Source: Tepidanaerobacter syntrophicus
GTDB lineage: Bacteria; Bacillota; Thermosediminibacteria; Thermosediminibacterales; Tepidanaerobacteraceae
DNA: 64,000 nucleotides
Assembly: GCF_001485475.2 (NCBI RefSeq)
Contig: NZ_DF977001.1
Location: 434,001 to 498,000 of the forward strand
Reading direction: 5' to 3'
The position numbers and the translations under genes were made by a program. The notes below the pieces were generated by a model. It was not told where the DNA came from, did not search any database, and worked only from the letters and a program-made list of their open reading frames with translations. Numbering within the stretch: position 1 is the first letter of the stretch; the number at the start of each line of letters is the position of its first letter. Below, piece by piece: positions 9,704 to 50,098 of this stretch.

Positions 9704-9747
9704 AGTTGCTTTTTTGAGCACTCACTACTATCAACCTCCTCTTACAA

Positions 9748-9894
9748 CGCTGGCGAGGTTAGCTGTCGGATTCGGGTCGAAGAGTGTAACCCTACCCCTC
9801 TAATCAAGAACTTGCAATTTGATTTCTTGGTCAAAGGGGATTCACCCCAAAAGTGGTTCCCCCGCTTCTTTCTTTTCGAAAGAATTAAGCGCTC
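9748..9894 (-). promoter_or_regulatory. c-di-AMP riboswitch (ydaO-yuaA type)
   Basis: The minus strand matches the conserved blocks of the ydaO motif in order: CGCTTAATTCT, AGCGGGGGAACC, TTGGGGTGAATCC, GGGGTAGGG, GACCCGAATCCGACAGC, TAACCTCGCCAGCG. Known members switch genes off when c-di-AMP is bound, usually genes for cell-wall, potassium or osmolyte functions. Here the terminator at 9673-9703 fits an OFF switch for the opine dehydrogenase operon. The motif match is seen directly; ligand and direction come from the family. Confidence 0.93.
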
Positions 9895-9925
9895 AGATTG
9901 AGAGCTCATGTATTAAGTTTCTTTA

Positions 9926-22542: not shown

Positions 22543-22690
22543 CTCTGTCCTTTTGCCTGAAAGATCTACCTCGTCGGCGCAAGAAGCTCTCCAGAGGGCG
22601 GTCCAAAGATGATCCTTTTGCCTGAGAGTTTCACCTGGCTCGGTTTACCCCTTCGGCGCCTTTTTAAAGGTCTCTCTCATCTTTTTCATA
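22542..22690 (-). promoter_or_regulatory. Tandem glycine riboswitch
   Basis: Two aptamers in a row on the minus strand. The first has GAGAGAGACC, GGCGCCGAAGGGG and CTCTCAGGCAAAAGGA; the second has CTGGAGAGCTTC, GCGCCGACGAGG and TTTCAGGCAAAAGGAC. This is the standard gcvT-motif pair that turns on glycine cleavage when glycine is high. Confidence 0.95.
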
Positions 22691-34125: not shown

Positions 34126-34300
34126 CTCCTGAAGTAGCTCTCCACCGAATTGCTCCGGTGACAGTCCTATACTTATTCAGCATAGGCCCAGCATGGTCTT
34201 TGGGAAAAACCACACTTCGGCAGTGTTCCCTTTCGGCTTGCTTAATCAGCTTCCCTCGCCTCTGCAAGCTTACTCTTGATACACCGCGCCTCTACCTCAA
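34126..34300 (-). promoter_or_regulatory. Lysine riboswitch (L box)
   Basis: The minus strand has the L-box blocks in order: GAGGTAGAGGCGCG, AAGAGTAAGC, GCCGAAAGGGAACACTGCCG, a CATGCTGGGCCTATGCTG segment, GGACTGTCACCGG and GGAGAGCTACTTC, which pairs back with GAGGTAG as P1. Lysine binding would favour the terminator at 34070. This gives feedback control of the second ddh. Confidence 0.95.
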
Positions 34301-34335
34301 CTCTTAGCGAGATGAGGCATATTCAATTTTTTATA

Positions 34336-41903: not shown

Positions 41904-43592
41904 TCAGCTATTTTTGCTTATTAACTTCCTGGCATATTCACTTTTAGGATTATCAAATACTTTCCGGGCCGGACCTGTTTCCACTATTTCACCCTTATGC
42001 ATTATATACAGTTTGTCGGCGATTTTTCTTGCAATATCCAAGTCGTGGGTAATATAAATCATGGAAAATCCTAATGCGTTCTGAAGACCCTTTAAAAGCC
42101 GCAAGATATTAGCTTGGGTGGAAGGATCCAGCATAGAGCTAATCTCATCGGCGATGAGAAGTCGCGGCTTTAAAACAAGGCTGCGAGCGATAGCAACCCG
42201 CTGCCGTTGCCCACCGCTTAACGTAAAGCATCTCCTGTTTAAAAAAGTATTATCACATGCAAGTTCCACATCTGCGAGAGCTTGTTTTACCATTGCTGTT
42301 CGTTCATCTGTATTATAGAGCTTTAATATGTCCAGAGGTTCCTTTACAGCTTGCAGTACTGTAAATTGCTTGTTTATGGATGAAAATGGGTCTTGAAACA
42401 CCATTTGGATACCTCTTAGCTGGCTGGTAAATTCATGCTGTTTTATTGTTTGACCTAAGAATTCAATATTCCCGCTTTCAGGTTCCAAATAACCTGAAAG
42501 AATACTTGCCAGAGTAGTTTTACCTGATCCGGATTGTCCTATCAATGCTATAATCTCGCCTGCGCGAATACTCATATGACAATCTTTGCATGCGCAAATC
42601 TTGTTGCCTTTAAAAGAGTAGGTTTTATTTATTCCCCGGGCTTTTAAAAGTGTTATAATCCCACCTTGATTGCAGGCAACTTTGCGCTCAAGGGATGCAT
42701 ATTTCAGTTTAGGTTTTTGACTTTTGCATATATCTTCTTTTTGATTGCACCGAGGATAAAAGGAGCAGCCCTCCTCGGTTGCCGCCTCACTTGCCCGGGG
42801 AATTCCCCATAGATCCTGATATGGATTTAAAGAAGGCGATGAATTTATGAGCCCGCGCGTATAAGGATGCAATGGGTTTTCAAGTATATCTCTTGTCAGT
42901 CCTTCTTCTAAGATATGCCCCCGGTACATCACACACATTTTATCGGTAAGTCGCGTAATTACAGAAAAATCATGGGATATTACAATCATAGCAAACCGCT
43001 TTTGGTGTTGAAGGTAAGCTAAAAGCTCGATAATTTCTTCTTTGGATACGGCGTCTAAAGAAGATGTCGGCTCATCAACTATAAGCACTTTAGGATCACA
43101 TGCCAATGCCATAGCAATAAGCACCTTCTGCCGCATACCTCCCGATAGCTGATGAGGTAAGCTATCTGCTACAGAGGTATCCAATCCCACTTGTCCAAGG
43201 AGTTCTTTTACTCGAGAATCCGCGTCATGACTTTTTATTTTCGTATGACGTATAATACACTCTTTTATCTGCTCATTTACGGTCATAAGCGGATTTAATA
43301 TGTCAAGACCGTTTTGAAATACCATAGCAATGTGTTTCCATCGATACATATCCAGCTGCCTTTGCGAAAGCTCTCTTAAATTGATTTTATTATATTCTAT
43401 TGTCCCCGTAATCTTTGCAGTCGGTCTAAGTATACCCATTATAGCTAAGCCCAGTGTGGTTTTACCGCTTCCTGATTCTCCGATGATTCCCATGGATTGA
43501 CCCTGTTCTAGGATAAAAGATACCTCGCTTACGGCATGGGTTTCTTGACCGTCCCCGCTATAGGTTATTGATAGATTTTCAACTTTTAACAT
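41904..43592 (-). CDS. Fused two-ATPase ABC protein (OppD-OppF type)
   Basis: 562 residues with two complete ATPase domains. Domain 1: GIIGESGSGKTTLGLAIMG, LSGGMRQKVLIAMALA, VLIVDEPTSSLDAVS (about 1-260), with the GCSFYPRCNQKEDIC cysteine tail. Domain 2: ALIGQSGSGKTTLASILSG, LSGGQRQRVAIARSLV, LLIADEISSMLDPS (about 315-562). It powers the permeases encoded just upstream. Substrate class is peptide, nickel or metal-chelate; see the FmdE and ECF neighbours. Confidence 0.92.
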   Translation of the reverse strand: MLKVENLSITYSGDGQETHAVSEVSFILEQGQSMGIIGESGSGKTTLGLAIMGILRPTAKITGTIEYNKINLRELSQRQLDMYRWKHIAMVFQNGLDILNPLMTVNEQIKECIIRHTKIKSHDADSRVKELLGQVGLDTSVADSLPHQLSGGMRQKVLIAMALACDPKVLIVDEPTSSLDAVSKEEIIELLAYLQHQKRFAMIVISHDFSVITRLTDKMCVMYRGHILEEGLTRDILENPLHPYTRGLINSSPSLNPYQDLWGIPRASEAATEEGCSFYPRCNQKEDICKSQKPKLKYASLERKVACNQGGIITLLKARGINKTYSFKGNKICACKDCHMSIRAGEIIALIGQSGSGKTTLASILSGYLEPESGNIEFLGQTIKQHEFTSQLRGIQMVFQDPFSSINKQFTVLQAVKEPLDILKLYNTDERTAMVKQALADVELACDNTFLNRRCFTLSGGQRQRVAIARSLVLKPRLLIADEISSMLDPSTQANILRLLKGLQNALGFSMIYITHDLDIARKIADKLYIMHKGEIVETGPARKVFDNPKSEYARKLISKNS

Positions 43593-43635
43593 GGCAATAC
43601 CTCTGTTTAAAACATCCGATTTTGGTTTCTAAAAT

Positions 43636-44478
43636 CTAATCAATTTTGGCATCTAATATTTTTTCAAACTCTCTGCCAACAGTGGCTGTAGCAAGAACCA
43701 ACAATATTATACAAAGCAGCGGATATATAATCCACCATTTCCAATAATCGGTAAAATATATGCCGGGAAAATTTAATGCATAATTTAGTATAAGCCCCCA
43801 ACTTTTACTTGTGGGGTCCCCTAGGCCTAAAAATGAAAGACTTGCCTCGGATACTATGGCCCTGCTTATAAGTTTTATAAAACTTATAAGCGAAATTGGA
43901 AAAATCTGCGGCAGAAAATGTCTGTAAGTTATGTAAAAAAATCCTGCTCCATAGCCCTCGGCTACTTTTATGTAAGTTTCCTGTTTGGCCGAAATAATCT
44001 TTGAGCGTATAATCCGCGCGGGCACAGCCCAAGATAAAATAGATAATATTAATATAATGTTTTTTATGCTCGGGCCGAAAAAAGCCCCTGTCACAACCAT
44101 TATGGGCAAACTTGGTATAGATGTAAGTATATCTATTAGAGCTGTAATTACAAGGTCAGCTACCCCTTGATAATATCCGGATACAACGCCCAGTAGTGTG
44201 CCAAGAAAACATGCAATTACTGCTGTGCCTATTCCCACTACAATGCTGTTTCGCGCCCCGTGGCATATTTGAGCCCACAAATCTATGCCCAGATCATCAG
44301 TGCCTAGTATATGGGCTTTGCCGGGGGGCTCCAAAGAAGCGCCCGTCGGCTGATTCCAGGGGTATTTTGTAAGCATCGGGGCAAAAATGGCGATAAAACA
44401 TACTAAGACTATGAAAACTAAGGAAAATTTACCTGCTATTGAAAACTGTTTCACGATTTTAGGCATTTTTATCACCAT
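43636..44478 (-). CDS. OppC/NikC-type ABC permease
   Basis: 280 residues. KAHILGTDDLGIDLWAQICHGARNSIVVGI is the DppC/NikC-type entry, followed by the EAA loop ETYIKVAEGYGAGFFYITYRHFLPQIFP. The start overlaps the stop of the preceding permease (TAATG), indicating coupled translation. Confidence 0.9.
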   Translation of the reverse strand: MVIKMPKIVKQFSIAGKFSLVFIVLVCFIAIFAPMLTKYPWNQPTGASLEPPGKAHILGTDDLGIDLWAQICHGARNSIVVGIGTAVIACFLGTLLGVVSGYYQGVADLVITALIDILTSIPSLPIMVVTGAFFGPSIKNIILILSILSWAVPARIIRSKIISAKQETYIKVAEGYGAGFFYITYRHFLPQIFPISLISFIKLISRAIVSEASLSFLGLGDPTSKSWGLILNYALNFPGIYFTDYWKWWIIYPLLCIILLVLATATVGREFEKILDAKID

Positions 44479-45446
44479 TAAGTTATTCTCGGGTCAAGCC
44501 TTTTATATAAAATATCAACTGCCGCATTCATGATAATTACAAAAAGCGTTACGGTTAGAAAAATGCCCTGTATCAGAGGATAATCCCTGACCATTACGGC
44601 TTGTCGCATTAATGAACCGAGGCCCGGATATTTAAATACATTTTCTACCAATAATGTCCCTCCCACTGCTTGTCCCAAACTGTAAAAGGCTTGGGTTGCA
44701 ATAGGCAAGGCAGCATTAGATAAGGCGTGGCGAAAGAGTATACGCCTTGTGCCAAGTCCCTTAGCTTTAGCTGTGATTATATAATCTTTCGACATTATTG
44801 TAATCATGCTGTTTCTGGCTATAAGGTAAAATCCGCTCATCTGCACAACAGAGAGTGTCAGGGTAGGTAAAAAACCGTGACGTGCTATATCTAAAAGCAC
44901 ATCAATCCAAGAGGCATAGTCCGCAAAGGGTTTTGCGCCACCTGAAAGAGGAAAAATTCCCTGCCGAGCCGCCAAATAAAACAGGAAAAATATGCCTATT
45001 AAAAACGCTGGAATCTCAGAAATTACCACCATGATACTATAGAGGAACTTATCCGAAGCATTTCCTCTGTACCATGCGGACAAGCAGCCCAACAGCGTGC
45101 CAACGCCACCCCCGATTATTACTGATAGCAGTACTAAGGAAACAGACCAAGGAATACGGTTCTTAATAATTGTCTTAACATCACTGCCGAAATATATGCT
45201 GTACCCCAAATCCCCTTTGATAATACCCTTCAGATAGCTGCCATATTGGGCAAGCATAGACTTATCCAGACCGTAGTATGCTTTAAACCGATCAATTTCT
45301 TCTTGAGAATAAGTTACAGCAACCTCTCCCTGTTCGCTTGATAAAAAATAGAAGGGGTCACCCGGCATAATTCGGGGCAAAAAGAAGTTCAATGTGATTA
45401 TACAGAAAAACGTTGCAAAATATTTCAGGGCTTTTTGATGTCTCAT
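44478..45446 (-). CDS. OppB/NikB-type ABC permease
   Basis: 322 residues, about six membrane helices. FFLPRIMPGDPFYFL near the N-terminus and the EAA loop DYIITAKAKGLGTRRILFRHALSNAALPIATQAF near residue 215 are typical. It overlaps the binding-protein gene by 4 bases. Confidence 0.9.
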   Translation of the reverse strand: MRHQKALKYFATFFCIITLNFFLPRIMPGDPFYFLSSEQGEVAVTYSQEEIDRFKAYYGLDKSMLAQYGSYLKGIIKGDLGYSIYFGSDVKTIIKNRIPWSVSLVLLSVIIGGGVGTLLGCLSAWYRGNASDKFLYSIMVVISEIPAFLIGIFFLFYLAARQGIFPLSGGAKPFADYASWIDVLLDIARHGFLPTLTLSVVQMSGFYLIARNSMITIMSKDYIITAKAKGLGTRRILFRHALSNAALPIATQAFYSLGQAVGGTLLVENVFKYPGLGSLMRQAVMVRDYPLIQGIFLTVTLFVIIMNAAVDILYKRLDPRIT

Positions 45447-47029
45447 TTATCTTGTTCCAAGTATGATAATTTGTTATGAGTTACTGCGTGATGGTCAAAA
45501 ACATGAACCCATCCGTCGTACTTTTCCGGTTTAAAGACTGTATAATCAATTGTATTGTAGATGGGCAGTATTGGTATCTCGTCTGATATAAGCTTTTGAA
45601 GCTCCATTATCATCGATTTTCTTTTTTGTTCATCAAGTTCAGCAAGCTGCTCTTTGCAAAGTCGGTTTATATCGGGATTGCTGTAACCGCAAATTACATT
45701 GGATGTGGGACCGGCATCGCAAGCTGCGGTTGCCGCATAAACTTCCCTGAGACAATCGGCATCCGCCCCCCAGCCGCCATGTCCGATTATGGCAAGTTCA
45801 TAATCACAGTTTTTAACACAGCTGTCGCGGGTTTTCATGTCTACCGAACGAACATCGATATTGATTCCGGCTTTTGCGAAATTGATTTTAAGAAGTTCTG
45901 CGATTCTGGCTTCTTGTTGGCTGTCCGATATTAGCAGCGCCAGGTTTAATGATTTATTATTTAAAAGTTCTTTAGCTTTTTCTATATCAAAATCATATCG
46001 CGTAACATCGGGATTATACCATATATGATCAATCGGTAAATATCCGGGGCTTGCGGGAACCGCCGCGCCTCGTGCTACTTTTTCGATAAGTTCGTCAACA
46101 TTTACTGCATGGGCAATTGCTTTTCTTACGTTTATATCCGCTAATTCCGGTTTTTTCTCCATATTAAATAAAAGTTTATAACCCCAGAAGGCCGGACTTT
46201 TAAGGATTTTAAATTCCTTATTGTTTCTATATCGATCAATTAAATCCGGCGGAACATCCAAAACATCGATTTCTCCGTTTTCGAAAGCCAGCACCGGATC
46301 ACTTACCGGGATAAATTCAATAACATCTACCCCAGGCTTCCGTCCCCAGTAATCTTTAAATGCTTGGAATCGGTATTTGCCCTGTTCTTGACTATAATCC
46401 GTAAGTATGTACGGTCCGCATCCTACTAATTTATCCAAATCCATTATTTTTTTGGGATCATCTATGTCCTTCCAGATATGCTCCGGAATTATCCTGACAA
46501 TCCCCACTCTATCCAGTACTGTAGCGTTAGGATCTTTTACCACTATTTTTACCCGGTCTTCATCAATAACCTCTATTTTTTCTATAAATGGTTTGCTATC
46601 AATTAATAAGCTGTTTGACACCGGAGGATGTTTTTCGAAATACTCGAAAGAAAACTTCACATCTTGGGCGGTAAGCATCTTTCCGTCATGCCATTTGACC
46701 TTAGAGTTTAAAAGAAAGGTATACTCCCTGCCGTCCGATGAGATAGTCCATTCCTTCGCCAGCCATGGAATAAGACCGTCTTCTCCTTTTTCCAGAAGGC
46801 TGTCATAGATAAGACGCATTTTCGATGCTCCAGGTCCCCGAGAATAGTGAGCAAATGGGGAAGGAAACCCCCAATCCCCGCCTTCCAGGCGTATTACCAA
46901 TGAGCCGCTTTGACTTCCGGTGCTGCCTGTACTTTTTTCTGTGGTTTTTGCGCCGCAGCCTGCCATATTTAAAATCGCAATTATGAGTATCATTGCAGCA
47001 AGCAGTTTGGTTATTTTTGATTTTTTCAC
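45443..47029 (-). CDS. Peptide/nickel-type ABC transporter substrate-binding lipoprotein
   Basis: 528 residues, SBP_bac_5 family. Lipobox ILNMAGCG (Cys about 25). YTFLLNSKVKWHDGKMLTAQDVKFSFEYF and DINVRKAIAHAVNVDELIEKVARG are family marks. The C-terminus has an unusual histidine patch, HVFDHHAVTHNKLSYL, which could help bind metal or a metal chelate. It is the first gene of the ABC unit and follows an FmdE-type gene. Confidence 0.85.
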   Translation of the reverse strand: MKKSKITKLLAAMILIIAILNMAGCGAKTTEKSTGSTGSQSGSLVIRLEGGDWGFPSPFAHYSRGPGASKMRLIYDSLLEKGEDGLIPWLAKEWTISSDGREYTFLLNSKVKWHDGKMLTAQDVKFSFEYFEKHPPVSNSLLIDSKPFIEKIEVIDEDRVKIVVKDPNATVLDRVGIVRIIPEHIWKDIDDPKKIMDLDKLVGCGPYILTDYSQEQGKYRFQAFKDYWGRKPGVDVIEFIPVSDPVLAFENGEIDVLDVPPDLIDRYRNNKEFKILKSPAFWGYKLLFNMEKKPELADINVRKAIAHAVNVDELIEKVARGAAVPASPGYLPIDHIWYNPDVTRYDFDIEKAKELLNNKSLNLALLISDSQQEARIAELLKINFAKAGINIDVRSVDMKTRDSCVKNCDYELAIIGHGGWGADADCLREVYAATAACDAGPTSNVICGYSNPDINRLCKEQLAELDEQKRKSMIMELQKLISDEIPILPIYNTIDYTVFKPEKYDGWVHVFDHHAVTHNKLSYLEQDK

Positions 47030-47089: not shown

Positions 47090-47620
47090 TTACCAACCTC
47101 TAGAATAATCATCAAAACAGTCTAGGCACACGGGATTATTATTTACCATACGTATTTTATGCTCAGGAGCGCCTTCGCCGCATTTTGTACATTTTATTGT
47201 ATTAAATATCCGAGCCTTTTTCGGCAAATCAAAACCGGGATTCTTAAATTCAAACAGTTCTTCAACGGGGCTTTCCAGGATAGCTTTCTTGCGCTCATCC
47301 TTTGAAAGTTTATCATTATCATCCCTGGGTTTTAATACTATACGCAATTTTTGTCCTGTGTCTCGTCGGAAGAAAGTAAAAGCCTGTTTGCCTGTACCTC
47401 GGTATATTAAGTTTCCTTTACCTAGCGTACATCCCGTAACAACCTGGACTGCGTCAACGCCGCACGCATCATTTTCTGTAACGCAAACTATTTCTTCATC
47501 TTTAGAAAAATTTACACCGAGTTTTTCCCGCGCCGCTTCGCATACTTTAAATCCGATAGCAAGACCCGGGCACTCATGACCGTGAAATTCCACACATTTT
47601 TGCCAAAGCTGCTCATCCAT
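47090..47620 (-). CDS. FmdE family zinc-ribbon protein
   Basis: About 176 residues. The FmdE domain shows HGHECPGLAIGFKVCEAAREKLG near residue 12, VTENDACGVDAVQVVTGCTLGKGN near 50-75, and FTFFRRDTG. A C-terminal zinc ribbon CTKCGEGAPEHKIRMVNNNPVCLDCF holds two CxxC pairs. Relatives lie beside formylmethanofuran dehydrogenase, or with metal transport genes in organisms lacking methanogenesis, as here. Metal or pterin handling is likely, but no function is proven. The ATG at 47620 has AAGGAG upstream. Confidence 0.85.
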   Translation of the reverse strand: MDEQLWQKCVEFHGHECPGLAIGFKVCEAAREKLGVNFSKDEEIVCVTENDACGVDAVQVVTGCTLGKGNLIYRGTGKQAFTFFRRDTGQKLRIVLKPRDDNDKLSKDERKKAILESPVEELFEFKNPGFDLPKKARIFNTIKCTKCGEGAPEHKIRMVNNNPVCLDCFDDYSRGW

Positions 47621-47661
47621 AAAAAATCTCTCCTTGTGATTTAGTATAAAGCGATACAAAT

Positions 47662-47703
47662 AATGAGCCAAGACTCATAAATTTTAAGACTTCATGGCTC
47701 ATT
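47662..47703 (-). terminator. Hairpin between methyltransferase and FmdE genes
   Basis: AATGAGCCA...TGGCTCATT, a 9-bp stem. The sequence right after the stem arm contains GCCATGAAG, which recalls the ATGAA loops of the leader at 48927. No strong T-run; it could slow or end transcription. Confidence 0.4.
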
Positions 47704-47725: not shown

Positions 47726-48313
47726 TTATTTTTTACCGATAACTATAAACATCTCTTCGCTGTCTATAGTAAAGAAAGGTTCAAGCCCTGCCTCTTTCAT
47801 AAATCCCTCTATAACATCTGCTTCAGGCAGGTCATCGTTATTTACCGCATCAGAGCTTTTTGTATGGAGCTCATTTATAGCTTTTCTGCTCTGGGAGTGA
47901 GCTATTACAAGCCTACCGCCGGGCTTAAGAAGCCCTGCCATACGAGATATCACTTTTGGTTTATCTTGAAAGTGAGGGAAAACTGAGTAGCACATTATAA
48001 CATCAAAATGGTTTTTAGGAAGATGCACATCGTAAATATCTCCCAGAACAAAACGAACATTGTTAAAAGGGTGCTTCTGCTTTGCAACCTCAAGCATCTT
48101 TTCCGCAAGATCAATGGCTGTAATTTCTCCCTCATCACCTATCATTTCATGTATATAGGGAATCATAACACCTGTTCCTGTGCCTACATCTAAAACGCAA
48201 TCACCTTGTGATATCCCTGCCGCTCTAGCTATATATCTAAGTTTTGCTTCATCATGGTTGCACATCTGGTCCCATTTATCCGCTACTTCATTAAAAAATT
48301 CTCTATGGTTCAA
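47726..48313 (-). CDS. SAM-dependent methyltransferase, class I
   Basis: 195 residues. Motif I is VLDVGTGTGVMIPYI near residue 40 and the acidic end of strand 2 is ITAIDLAEKML; motif II is DVIMCYSVFPHF near 107. The substrate is unknown; position between the ECF and FmdE genes suggests a cofactor or metal chelate. It overlaps the ECF gene by 11 bases. Confidence 0.88.
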   Translation of the reverse strand: MNHREFFNEVADKWDQMCNHDEAKLRYIARAAGISQGDCVLDVGTGTGVMIPYIHEMIGDEGEITAIDLAEKMLEVAKQKHPFNNVRFVLGDIYDVHLPKNHFDVIMCYSVFPHFQDKPKVISRMAGLLKPGGRLVIAHSQSRKAINELHTKSSDAVNNDDLPEADVIEGFMKEAGLEPFFTIDSEEMFIVIGKK

Positions 48314-48845
48314 GGGTATCCCTCCCTCTTGCCCTTATTTGATATTTCTTAAGCAGCAAAACTACTGCAGGAATAAATATTAATTGAATTGCTATTCCTG
48401 GCAGCCCTTTTGTAATACTTGCAGCAATAAAGGCGAAGGGTGTGGGGAATTTGGCACCGAAAAATGTCGTGAGCATCCATACGGCAACACCGGATACAAT
48501 GCGGCCTAAAATCATGCTGCAAACTAAGGATATATAAACATTTTTGTGAAGCTTTCTATACATAAAACTTGTCACATAACCATAAGCGGCAAGTTCAAAA
48601 ACCATGTAAGGCATTACCGGAAAAGCAGGAGGCATGCCGGTAAAAATAGAACTTAAAATTGGTGTCAAGGCTCCTACCGCCGCTGCAGCAGGCGCATCCA
48701 AGAAAAATCCCGAAAGCAAAACCGGTATGTGCATCGGCAAAAAGGTTGAACCAAGTCCTAGCACATGAAACATCATCGGCAGGACAATTCCGAAAGCGGT
48801 AAAAACACCTGCAAGAGCTATCTGGTATAAATTATCATTTCTCAA
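48303..48845 (-). CDS. ECF transporter S component
   Basis: About 180 residues and five or six membrane helices. GLGSTFLPMHIPVLLSGFFLD is the conserved membrane segment of one S-component family; MILGRIVSGVAVWML and KGLPGIAIQLIFIPAVVLLLKKY follow. S components bind vitamins or metals and use a shared EcfT-EcfA module that is elsewhere. The start is probably TTG at 48845 with GGGGTG upstream; the longer frame to 48911 overlaps the leader terminator. Confidence 0.82.
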   Translation of the reverse strand: MRNDNLYQIALAGVFTAFGIVLPMMFHVLGLGSTFLPMHIPVLLSGFFLDAPAAAAVGALTPILSSIFTGMPPAFPVMPYMVFELAAYGYVTSFMYRKLHKNVYISLVCSMILGRIVSGVAVWMLTTFFGAKFPTPFAFIAASITKGLPGIAIQLIFIPAVVLLLKKYQIRARGRDTLEP

Positions 48846-48881: not shown

Positions 48882-48940
48882 ATAAAAAAACCATGAATAA
48901 AGCCGTTTCATTCAGCTAAACAGCTTAACCTTCATGGTTT
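48882..48940 (-). terminator. Leader terminator before the ECF gene
   Basis: AAACCATGAA...TTCATGGTTT, then TTTTTATTTTC, on the minus strand. Its 5' arm is also used by the second small hairpin, so the two structures exclude each other. Confidence 0.85.
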
Positions 48941-48966
48941 GTCTACTTTATGGCCTTCATGACCAT
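48927..48966 (-). promoter_or_regulatory. Tandem-hairpin leader RNA of unknown ligand
   Basis: Two short hairpins with the same loop: ATGGTC-ATGAA-GGCCAT (48950-48966) and AACC-ATGAA-GGTT (48927-48939), joined by AAAGTAGACA. It starts right at the predicted transcript start and runs into the terminator at 48882. I do not recognise it; the loop lacks the ACGR of guanidine-II RNA. Confidence 0.55.
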
Positions 48967-48974
48967 TTGATAAA

Positions 48975-49003
48975 ATTTTAACATTTGCTTCTCTTTTTGT
49001 CAA
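48975..49003 (-). promoter_or_regulatory. Promoter of the ECF-methyltransferase-FmdE-ABC cluster
   Basis: TTGACA, 17 bases, TAAAAT on the minus strand; predicted start near 48968. The 310-base gap 48846-49155 holds this, the leader and its terminator; I see nothing further. Confidence 0.75.
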
Positions 49004-49155: not shown

Positions 49156-49923
49156 CTACTTAAAATATATAGCAATAAAGCCCAATACAACTGTTACTAT
49201 TAACCCGAAAGCCCACTTTTGCAGTCCGCTAATTTCTTTATGGATATCATTGAATTTTTCATCTACTCTATCAAACCTTGCATCAGTTTCTTTTCTTATG
49301 GACTCAAGCCTAATATCTACTCTATCAAATCCAGAATCGGTTTTATCGGATAGGTCTTTGATCTCCTTATGAACTGTGTCAAACCTAGCATCGGTCTTAT
49401 CTGACAGGTCTTTGATTTCCTTATGAATCGCCTCAAACTTAGTATCAGTTTTATCTGATAGGTCTTTAACTTCCTTACGAACTGCTTCAAACTTGCTCTC
49501 GGTCTTATCTGATAAGTCTTTAATTTCCTTATGAACCGCATCAAACCTGGCATCGGTTTTATCTGACAGGTCTTTGATCTCTTTATGAACTGTGTCAAAC
49601 CTAGCATCGGTCTTATCTGATAGATCTTTGATTCCCTTATGAACTGCTTCAAACTTACTATCGGTCTTATCTGATAGATCTTTAATTTCCTTACGAATCG
49701 CCTCAAACTTAGTATCAGTTTTATCGGATAGGTCTTTGATCTCCTTATGAACTGTGTCAAACCTAGCATCGACCCTGTCAAATTTTGCATCCATGCGATC
49801 TCTTACATCGTTTATTTGTTGTGATAGATAAAAATATCCTGATTCATAAATCTTGGGTTCATGAGTTTCGTTTTGCCGTTGTTCACCATTACCGCCGGCA
49901 ATTTCTTTTTCTGCCACGCTCAT
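49156..49923 (-). CDS. Tandem-repeat coiled-coil protein with C-terminal membrane anchor
   Basis: 255 residues. Eight near-identical 18-residue repeats (consensus FDTVHKEIKDLSDKTDAR, residues about 55-198) form a predicted coiled coil, followed by a more varied unit. The C-terminus is one membrane segment (KWAFGLIVTVVLGFIAIYF), so it is a tail-anchored protein with the rest in the cytoplasm. There is no signal peptide. Role unknown. The start ATG at 49923 follows GGAGGAAGGGG. Confidence 0.7.
   Translation of the reverse strand: MSVAEKEIAGGNGEQRQNETHEPKIYESGYFYLSQQINDVRDRMDAKFDRVDARFDTVHKEIKDLSDKTDTKFEAIRKEIKDLSDKTDSKFEAVHKGIKDLSDKTDARFDTVHKEIKDLSDKTDARFDAVHKEIKDLSDKTESKFEAVRKEVKDLSDKTDTKFEAIHKEIKDLSDKTDARFDTVHKEIKDLSDKTDSGFDRVDIRLESIRKETDARFDRVDEKFNDIHKEISGLQKWAFGLIVTVVLGFIAIYFK
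49330..49761. repeat. 54-bp tandem repeat array inside a coding gene
   Basis: Eight units of 54 bp with high nucleotide identity encode the 18-residue repeats. The period keeps an extra same-strand frame (49317-49790) open by accident; it is not counted as a gene. Confidence 0.85.
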
Positions 49924-50098
49924 CACCCCTTCCTCCGCTTAAAACCATTATATCATTAATTACCGTAAGTTTCCATAAAGCCTTCCATTTCTCTGTTCTT
50001 TCAAACAGGCTTAAAGCTTATGTAAAAAAATCCGGCATAGCATATCAAAAGGCACCGGGAGTGATAAGGTAATGTTAGAGCTTTCAAATGTGAATGAA

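Follow-up and report, generated by a model that had tools for sequence, protein, structure and literature searches.

A terminator/anti-terminator leader with AYGRA hairpins before an ECF transporter gene of Tepidanaerobacter syntrophicus and its association with nickel genes

The leader and the genes behind it

What kind of RNA leads the ECF transporter transcript of T. syntrophicus, and to what might it respond? For the window (the whole stretch of DNA analysed, 64,000 nucleotides), a sequence-only reading had proposed a promoter, a first hairpin at the transcription start, a second with the same loop and a terminator excluding the second, and all of these elements are confirmed on the minus strand. 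The promoter (48975-49003) comprises TTGACA (49003-48998), a 17-nt spacer and TAAAAT (48980-48975) with TG before the -10 box; it scored 11/12 in a consensus scan and is retained in the relatives L003-L006 despite differing DNA upstream of it. Hairpin P1 (ATGGTC-ATGAA-GGCCAT, 48950-48966) occupies the expected transcription start and is followed by P2, the anti-terminator (AACC-ATGAA-GGTT, 48927-48939). The intrinsic terminator, assigned from its fold, helix covariation and minimum-energy state, spans 48884-48940: the 5' arm AAACCATGAA (48940-48931) pairs with the 3' arm TTCATGGTTT (48897-48888), followed by seven T, the U-tract being 48890-48884. The 5' arm and loop of P2 serve also as the 5' arm of the terminator, and the two structures are mutually exclusive. 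To these elements we add a third hairpin, P3 (AAGCTGTTT-AGCTGAATG-AAACGGCTT, 48900-48926), placed by folding within the terminator loop. The 87-nt leader folds at -30.2 kcal/mol, compared with -14.3 +/- 2.9 in dinucleotide shuffles (z -5.5, 0/200).

The genes behind the leader, all on the minus strand, had been taken for an ECF cluster, which is true of the first: it encodes an ECF transporter S-component (PF12822, Pfam E 3e-16; 48303-48845), with a likely TTG start at 48845 after AGGGGTG, but no EcfA or EcfT genes follow. Next in the cluster come a class I SAM methyltransferase gene of the same operon (47726-48313, Pfam), an FmdE-domain protein with a C-terminal zinc finger (47090-47671; PF02663 E 1.7e-37, PF01258) and a Nik/Dpp-type ABC transporter (41904-47029; Pfam and NCBIfam) made up of a substrate-binding protein, two permeases and a fused double ATPase. 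NikA is the best NCBIfam match of the binding protein, below the cut-off, and pairs of methyltransferase and FmdE genes under the RNA recur elsewhere. Just upstream of the leader (49156-49926, minus strand) lies a gene for a 256-aa protein that consists of near-identical repeats (KEIKDLSDKTDARFDTVH...), seems to have a membrane helix at its C-terminus and gave only low-specificity coiled-coil matches. The window also holds lysine (34127-34302), c-di-AMP (9734-9901) and glycine (22600-22689) riboswitches, all on the minus strand and above Rfam gathering scores. No further real copy of the leader was found in the window's own genome, where the next match had E 0.7.

Conservation, folding and distribution

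The S-component is present in 45/121 related genomes, and many of its orthologues are preceded by the same leader in otherwise differing DNA: the hairpin NNCC-AYGAA-GGNN, another one after it, and a terminator arm able to pair with the 5' arm and loop of the first. This retention in diverged surroundings, together with the covariation described below, argues that the leader is not a product of chance. Strong matches of a covariance model built on 18 leaders (R1, alignment A1) also fell in genomes that lack the S-component. Built on 49 sequences, a further model (R2) found the leader in 102/398 genomes of the phylum at E<=1e-4, the richest of which had 12 copies. When named genomes were scanned with a pattern, there were matches, most of them backed by R2, in Sporomusa, Acetobacterium, Carboxydocella, Desulfosporosinus, Romboutsia, Desulfospira, Desulfotignum, Nitrospirae and Tepidanaerobacteraceae contigs; the leader thus reaches contigs of Desulfobacterota and Nitrospirota. 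Upstream of the ECF S-component in L027, L032, L038 and L039, divergent leaders carry the loops ACGAA, ATGAA, AGGAA and GAGAA, and in L027 and L038 the terminator seems to pair with the hairpin 3' arm instead. Since the models miss these or score them low, the counts given understate the size of the family.

The sequence-only reading had staked its proposal on covariation and loop conservation among relatives, and both are found in alignment A4 (134 copies). The P2 loop is ATGAA in 68 copies, ACGAA in 49, ACGGA in 10 and ATGGA in 5, i.e. AYGRA in 132/134, with an invariant loop G and closing C-G pair. The P2 stem is paired in 93.5% of cells and its covariation score is 0.368 against at most 0.11 for slid partners, figures that lean towards P2, to which A4 was fitted, a bias limited by the slid controls and by a stem that is anchored on the loop and almost free of gaps; one of its pairs occurs as GC, AU, UA and GU. 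In the same alignment the terminator helix is 95.8% paired and covaries, and the loop Y covaries with the terminator 3' arm (UA 61, CG 57, UG 11). As both helices covary, two exclusive structures with a common arm have both been kept, which is the hallmark of a terminator/anti-terminator leader. Upstream hairpins of the P1 type (ANGRA loop) accompany 40 of 122 non-redundant copies versus 3.1 in shuffles, and a permuted-loop control gave 3 versus 2.3; P1 is detectable at about one third of copies only, and its distance from P2 ranges from about 4 to 106 nt. The P3 loops contain GRA in 84/115 cases against 30.4 expected.

Folding predicts the terminator as the default state. It is the minimum-energy fold in 120/121 sequences, by a median of 13 kcal/mol over the state with P2 and P3, and before the 3' arm emerges P2 lies within the minimum-energy fold in 112/121 transcripts. 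With the terminator as lowest-energy state, the operon is predicted to be off by default, and an outside factor would be needed to keep P2.

The same data bear on the plainest alternative, an ordinary terminator whose inverted repeats would make the hairpins look alike as a side effect. Part of the sequence can be imitated by generic terminators, as exact-pattern matches in Bacillus/Peribacillus (L114, L124, L130, L153) have no R2 support. However, a terminator would not require the 3' half of P2, which nonetheless covaries with its 5' counterpart; neither the G of the loop nor the closing C-G varies, and the gene association is specific. Covariation and regulon content therefore refute this reading, to which we assign a negligible probability.

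Complete leader units also occur two to three times in tandem or close succession, resembling tandem riboswitches (L107 5206-5639 and 19349-19782, a similar block at two sites; L102 13963-14088; L098 395-1165; L099 8517-8937); they precede genes for CobN-like, Peripla_BP_2, SBP_bac_5, DUF3842, FmdE and methyltransferase proteins. In L094, L095 and L090 (G094, G053), several near-identical copies (GGGACCACGAAGGTCTTGT...) stand before an oligopeptide/nickel-type ABC transporter and other genes, a recent expansion within one family (f33).

Downstream genes and the link to nickel

The nickel connection comes from comparative data. Downstream genes were taken at 179 loci without reference to function, with Pfam/NCBIfam labels on representatives. 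The first genes were CbiM/NikM (20), SBP_bac_5 (19), FmdE and DUF3842 (12 each), methyltransferases (8), oligopeptide/nickel-type ATPases (7), TrmO, permeases and TonB receptors (6 each), Peripla_BP_2 and DUF4198 (5 each), CobN (4), ExbB and FecCD (3 each), and ECF-S (23), a count that is not independent since the loci were partly found through this gene. Single cases include LarC, LarE, a NiFe(Se) hydrogenase small subunit, a CsoR/RcnR-type repressor and ZnuA; at TrmO loci a CooC-like ATPase came next wherever the following gene was read. NiCoT, CooC, LarB, CooS, NikQO and the hydrogenase large subunit were identified by sequence motifs. Judged by these labels and motifs, the genes under the leader are overwhelmingly nickel-linked. 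Nickel is indicated by the operons LarC-NikM-PDGLE-NikQO (L267), LarE-LarB-LarC (L176) and NikM-PDGLE followed by a CODH-like gene (L179), and by the NiFe(Se) hydrogenase operon of L162; cobalt may still be the metal in place of nickel, given the cobalamin riboswitch of L105 described below. In L162, a Desulfosporosinus contig (565-3263, minus strand), a weaker leader (27 bits) precedes the small and large hydrogenase subunits, and its target is thus a nickel enzyme, not a transporter. The presence of NiFe hydrogenase and LarEBC under the leader fits genes switched on when nickel is present better than genes switched on when it is scarce. In L105 (16651-17281, minus strand) a cobalamin riboswitch lies ~390 nt upstream of a nickel-type leader, both before CbiM/NikM, and dual B12/metal control is possible there.

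At some loci the protein NikR stands where the RNA is missing. In G015, G017, G018, G019 and G020, of a neighbouring family, nikR lies directly upstream of the orthologous ECF S-component without the RNA, and these loci carry GTGTTAC half-sites resembling delta-proteobacterial NikR sites (PMC545781). The repressor appears to control the same S-component orthologue in related genomes, as a DNA-binding protein and not as an RNA. Their family also includes G014, which carries the RNA but lacks NikR, and in the NikR genomes G017, G018 and G020 the RNA sits before NikM/CbiM. Among 121 genomes, NikR and the RNA occur together in 1 at E<=1e-4 (5.6 expected, p = 0.009) and in 4 at E<=1e-3 (p = 0.27). 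As the exclusion weakens at the looser threshold, a genome-wide rule is only suggestive, and we take the pattern as a local swap rather than a law.

Acetogens and sulfate reducers depend on nickel for CODH/ACS and NiFe hydrogenases, and carriers of the leader include both. The leader seems to be a means of nickel-supply control that has not been described before. Being widespread and nickel-linked, it would fill a regulatory gap, NikR being missing from most of the RNA-positive genomes checked. It would also offer a tag by which to search for nickel genes without a known role, namely those for the ECF S-component, FmdE, DUF3842, the methyltransferase and CobN-like proteins.

Mechanism and candidate factors

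We infer the regulation itself, its direction, its nickel signal and the nature of the factor as follows. Transcription would begin at P1, and P2 would fold on emerging; left unheld, it would be invaded by the terminator arm, and transcription would stop before the ECF gene. A factor active when nickel is needed would bind P2 at its AYGRA loop, with help from the similar loops in P1 and/or P3, block the terminator and allow the nickel-uptake operon to be transcribed. That the leader is such a transcription attenuator of a nickel regulon, with the factor holding P2 somewhat likelier a protein than a ligand, seems to us slightly better than an even bet. The choice posed is whether a minimal riboswitch of a new class or a novel RNA-binding regulator is at work.

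No family of Rfam 15 matched the leader at gathering, in agreement with the suspicion that its loops fit neither guanidine-II nor any other known class. The best weak match, TEG147 (E 0.11, 20 bits versus a cut-off of 56), covers the terminator part only, and the S. aureus paper on this RNA gives no nickel link. Nor did a literature search, with preprints and most subscription journals outside its scope, return a description of the motif. Guanidine-II RNAs (mini-ykkC) are defined by two hairpins with ACGR tetraloops. The leader likewise has two small hairpins with near-identical short loops, and its A-Y-G-R-A resembles A-C-G-R, but the loop is one base longer, Y2 is not fixed as C, the genes are nickel-linked and P3 is an extra, terminator hairpin. 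AYGRA pentaloops closed by C-G are found in 132/134 copies, and the guanidine-II model matched neither the window leader at E<=10 nor other members at gathering. The TwoAYGGAY RNA model likewise missed the window leader at E<=10. The NiCo (czcD) riboswitch shares the nickel/cobalt theme and the control of metal transporters, but it switches on exporters at high metal (PMC7266159), whereas the leader precedes uptake and nickel-enzyme genes; its model matched neither the window leader nor other members. The idea that a leader peptide begins at the AUG of the loop was rejected, as ACG replaces AUG in many copies.

The sequence-only reading had called the architecture riboswitch-like, which stands for the conserved terminator versus anti-terminator leader; a riboswitch proper is the slightly less likely reading of an element so tiny, repeated and variably spaced. 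A true riboswitch would have its AYGRA hairpins (P1/P2, or P2/P3 in tandem like guanidine-II) bind Ni2+/Co2+ or a nickel-related metabolite, hold P2 and turn the operon on. The highly conserved loop with its invariant G and purines, the tandem hairpins with matching loops and the tandem complete units of L102, L107, L098 and L099 are consistent with it, as are the wide spread, including Desulfobacterota and Nitrospirota, without dependence on ANTAR or CsrA proteins and the guanidine-II precedent, in which two small hairpins can suffice (PMC7266159). However, a metal-activated switch before uptake genes would amount to positive feedback, two thirds of the copies lack a detectable P1, the P1-P2 spacing is loose and the energy gap favours the terminator state; we regard a riboswitch as a serious possibility, yet a doubtful one. 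Control of uptake genes that are off by default is no less compatible with a trans-acting factor than with a metal ligand. Given a minimal element repeated at variable spacing, uptake genes in a default-off state and the co-occurrence of DUF3842, we think a trans-acting protein slightly likelier than a small ligand.

ANTAR-target RNAs have dual hairpins whose six-nucleotide loops carry A in position 1 and G in position 4, the second hairpin overlapping a terminator (PMC3369931). The leaders of eut, nasF and amiE thus resemble ours in their tandem small hairpins with conserved loops, the second excluding an intrinsic terminator, and in being off by default, and the window genome encodes one EutV-like ANTAR protein, beside eutA (by sequence). 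Anti-termination by such a protein is nevertheless largely refuted and, in our estimate, extremely improbable: the leader loops are AYGRA pentaloops, the genes are nickel genes, and ANTAR proteins are absent from 16/45 RNA-positive genomes, including the complete or near-complete G002, G005, G007, G011 and G022. CsrA is absent from 8/45 of these genomes, and FmdE from 15/45; neither is a required partner. The loop ends in GAA in 118/134 copies and in the GGA of CsrA-type loops in 15/134.

DUF3842 (PF12953) is present in 97/102 RNA-positive versus 84/296 RNA-negative genomes (odds ratio 49, phylogeny ignored) and in 42/45 RNA-positive genomes of the closer set, where the nickel-linked FmdE reaches 30/45. 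It often adjoins the RNA, NikM or the ECF gene, and some RNA-negative carriers have variant leaders that the models missed (L027, L032, L038, L039). This Rossmann-fold protein could sense nickel status or a nickel-related nucleotide and bind the AYGRA loops as an anti-terminator, a reading that we treat as a lead, not a result, and consider unlikely. Five RNA-positive genomes lack it (G027, G056, G099, G201, G244; from five families, three of which have other RNA-positive genomes with DUF3842). It also lies beside genes reading as CODH/ACS and hyp, and the co-occurrence may therefore only mark nickel use. Structure prediction (pLDDT 87.5) gave a generic Rossmann fold, as in many dehydrogenases, in which no RNA- or metal-binding site is evident and from which no function can be read, and no solved relative was found by sequence. 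In six genomes examined, no leader copy was found near DUF3842.

Iron-responsive elements, bound by IRPs, are small hairpins that share a conserved loop and recur throughout a metal regulon, acting in eukaryotes on translation or stability. The leader is like them in logic; loop, eukaryotic host and level of control differ, and the comparison is an analogy only. A dedicated bacterial system in which DUF3842 reads nickel status and acts as the RNA-binding anti-terminator of AYGRA-hairpin leaders is speculative, and we would be surprised to see it borne out; if true, leader and protein would govern uptake and assembly for nickel enzymes in anaerobes, as a bacterial counterpart, in logic, of the iron-responsive element. 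The DUF3842 gene of the window genome (L282 4593-5006, minus strand, C7) lies ~270 kb from the window cluster, among genes that read as acetyl-CoA-synthase and corrinoid-activation genes.
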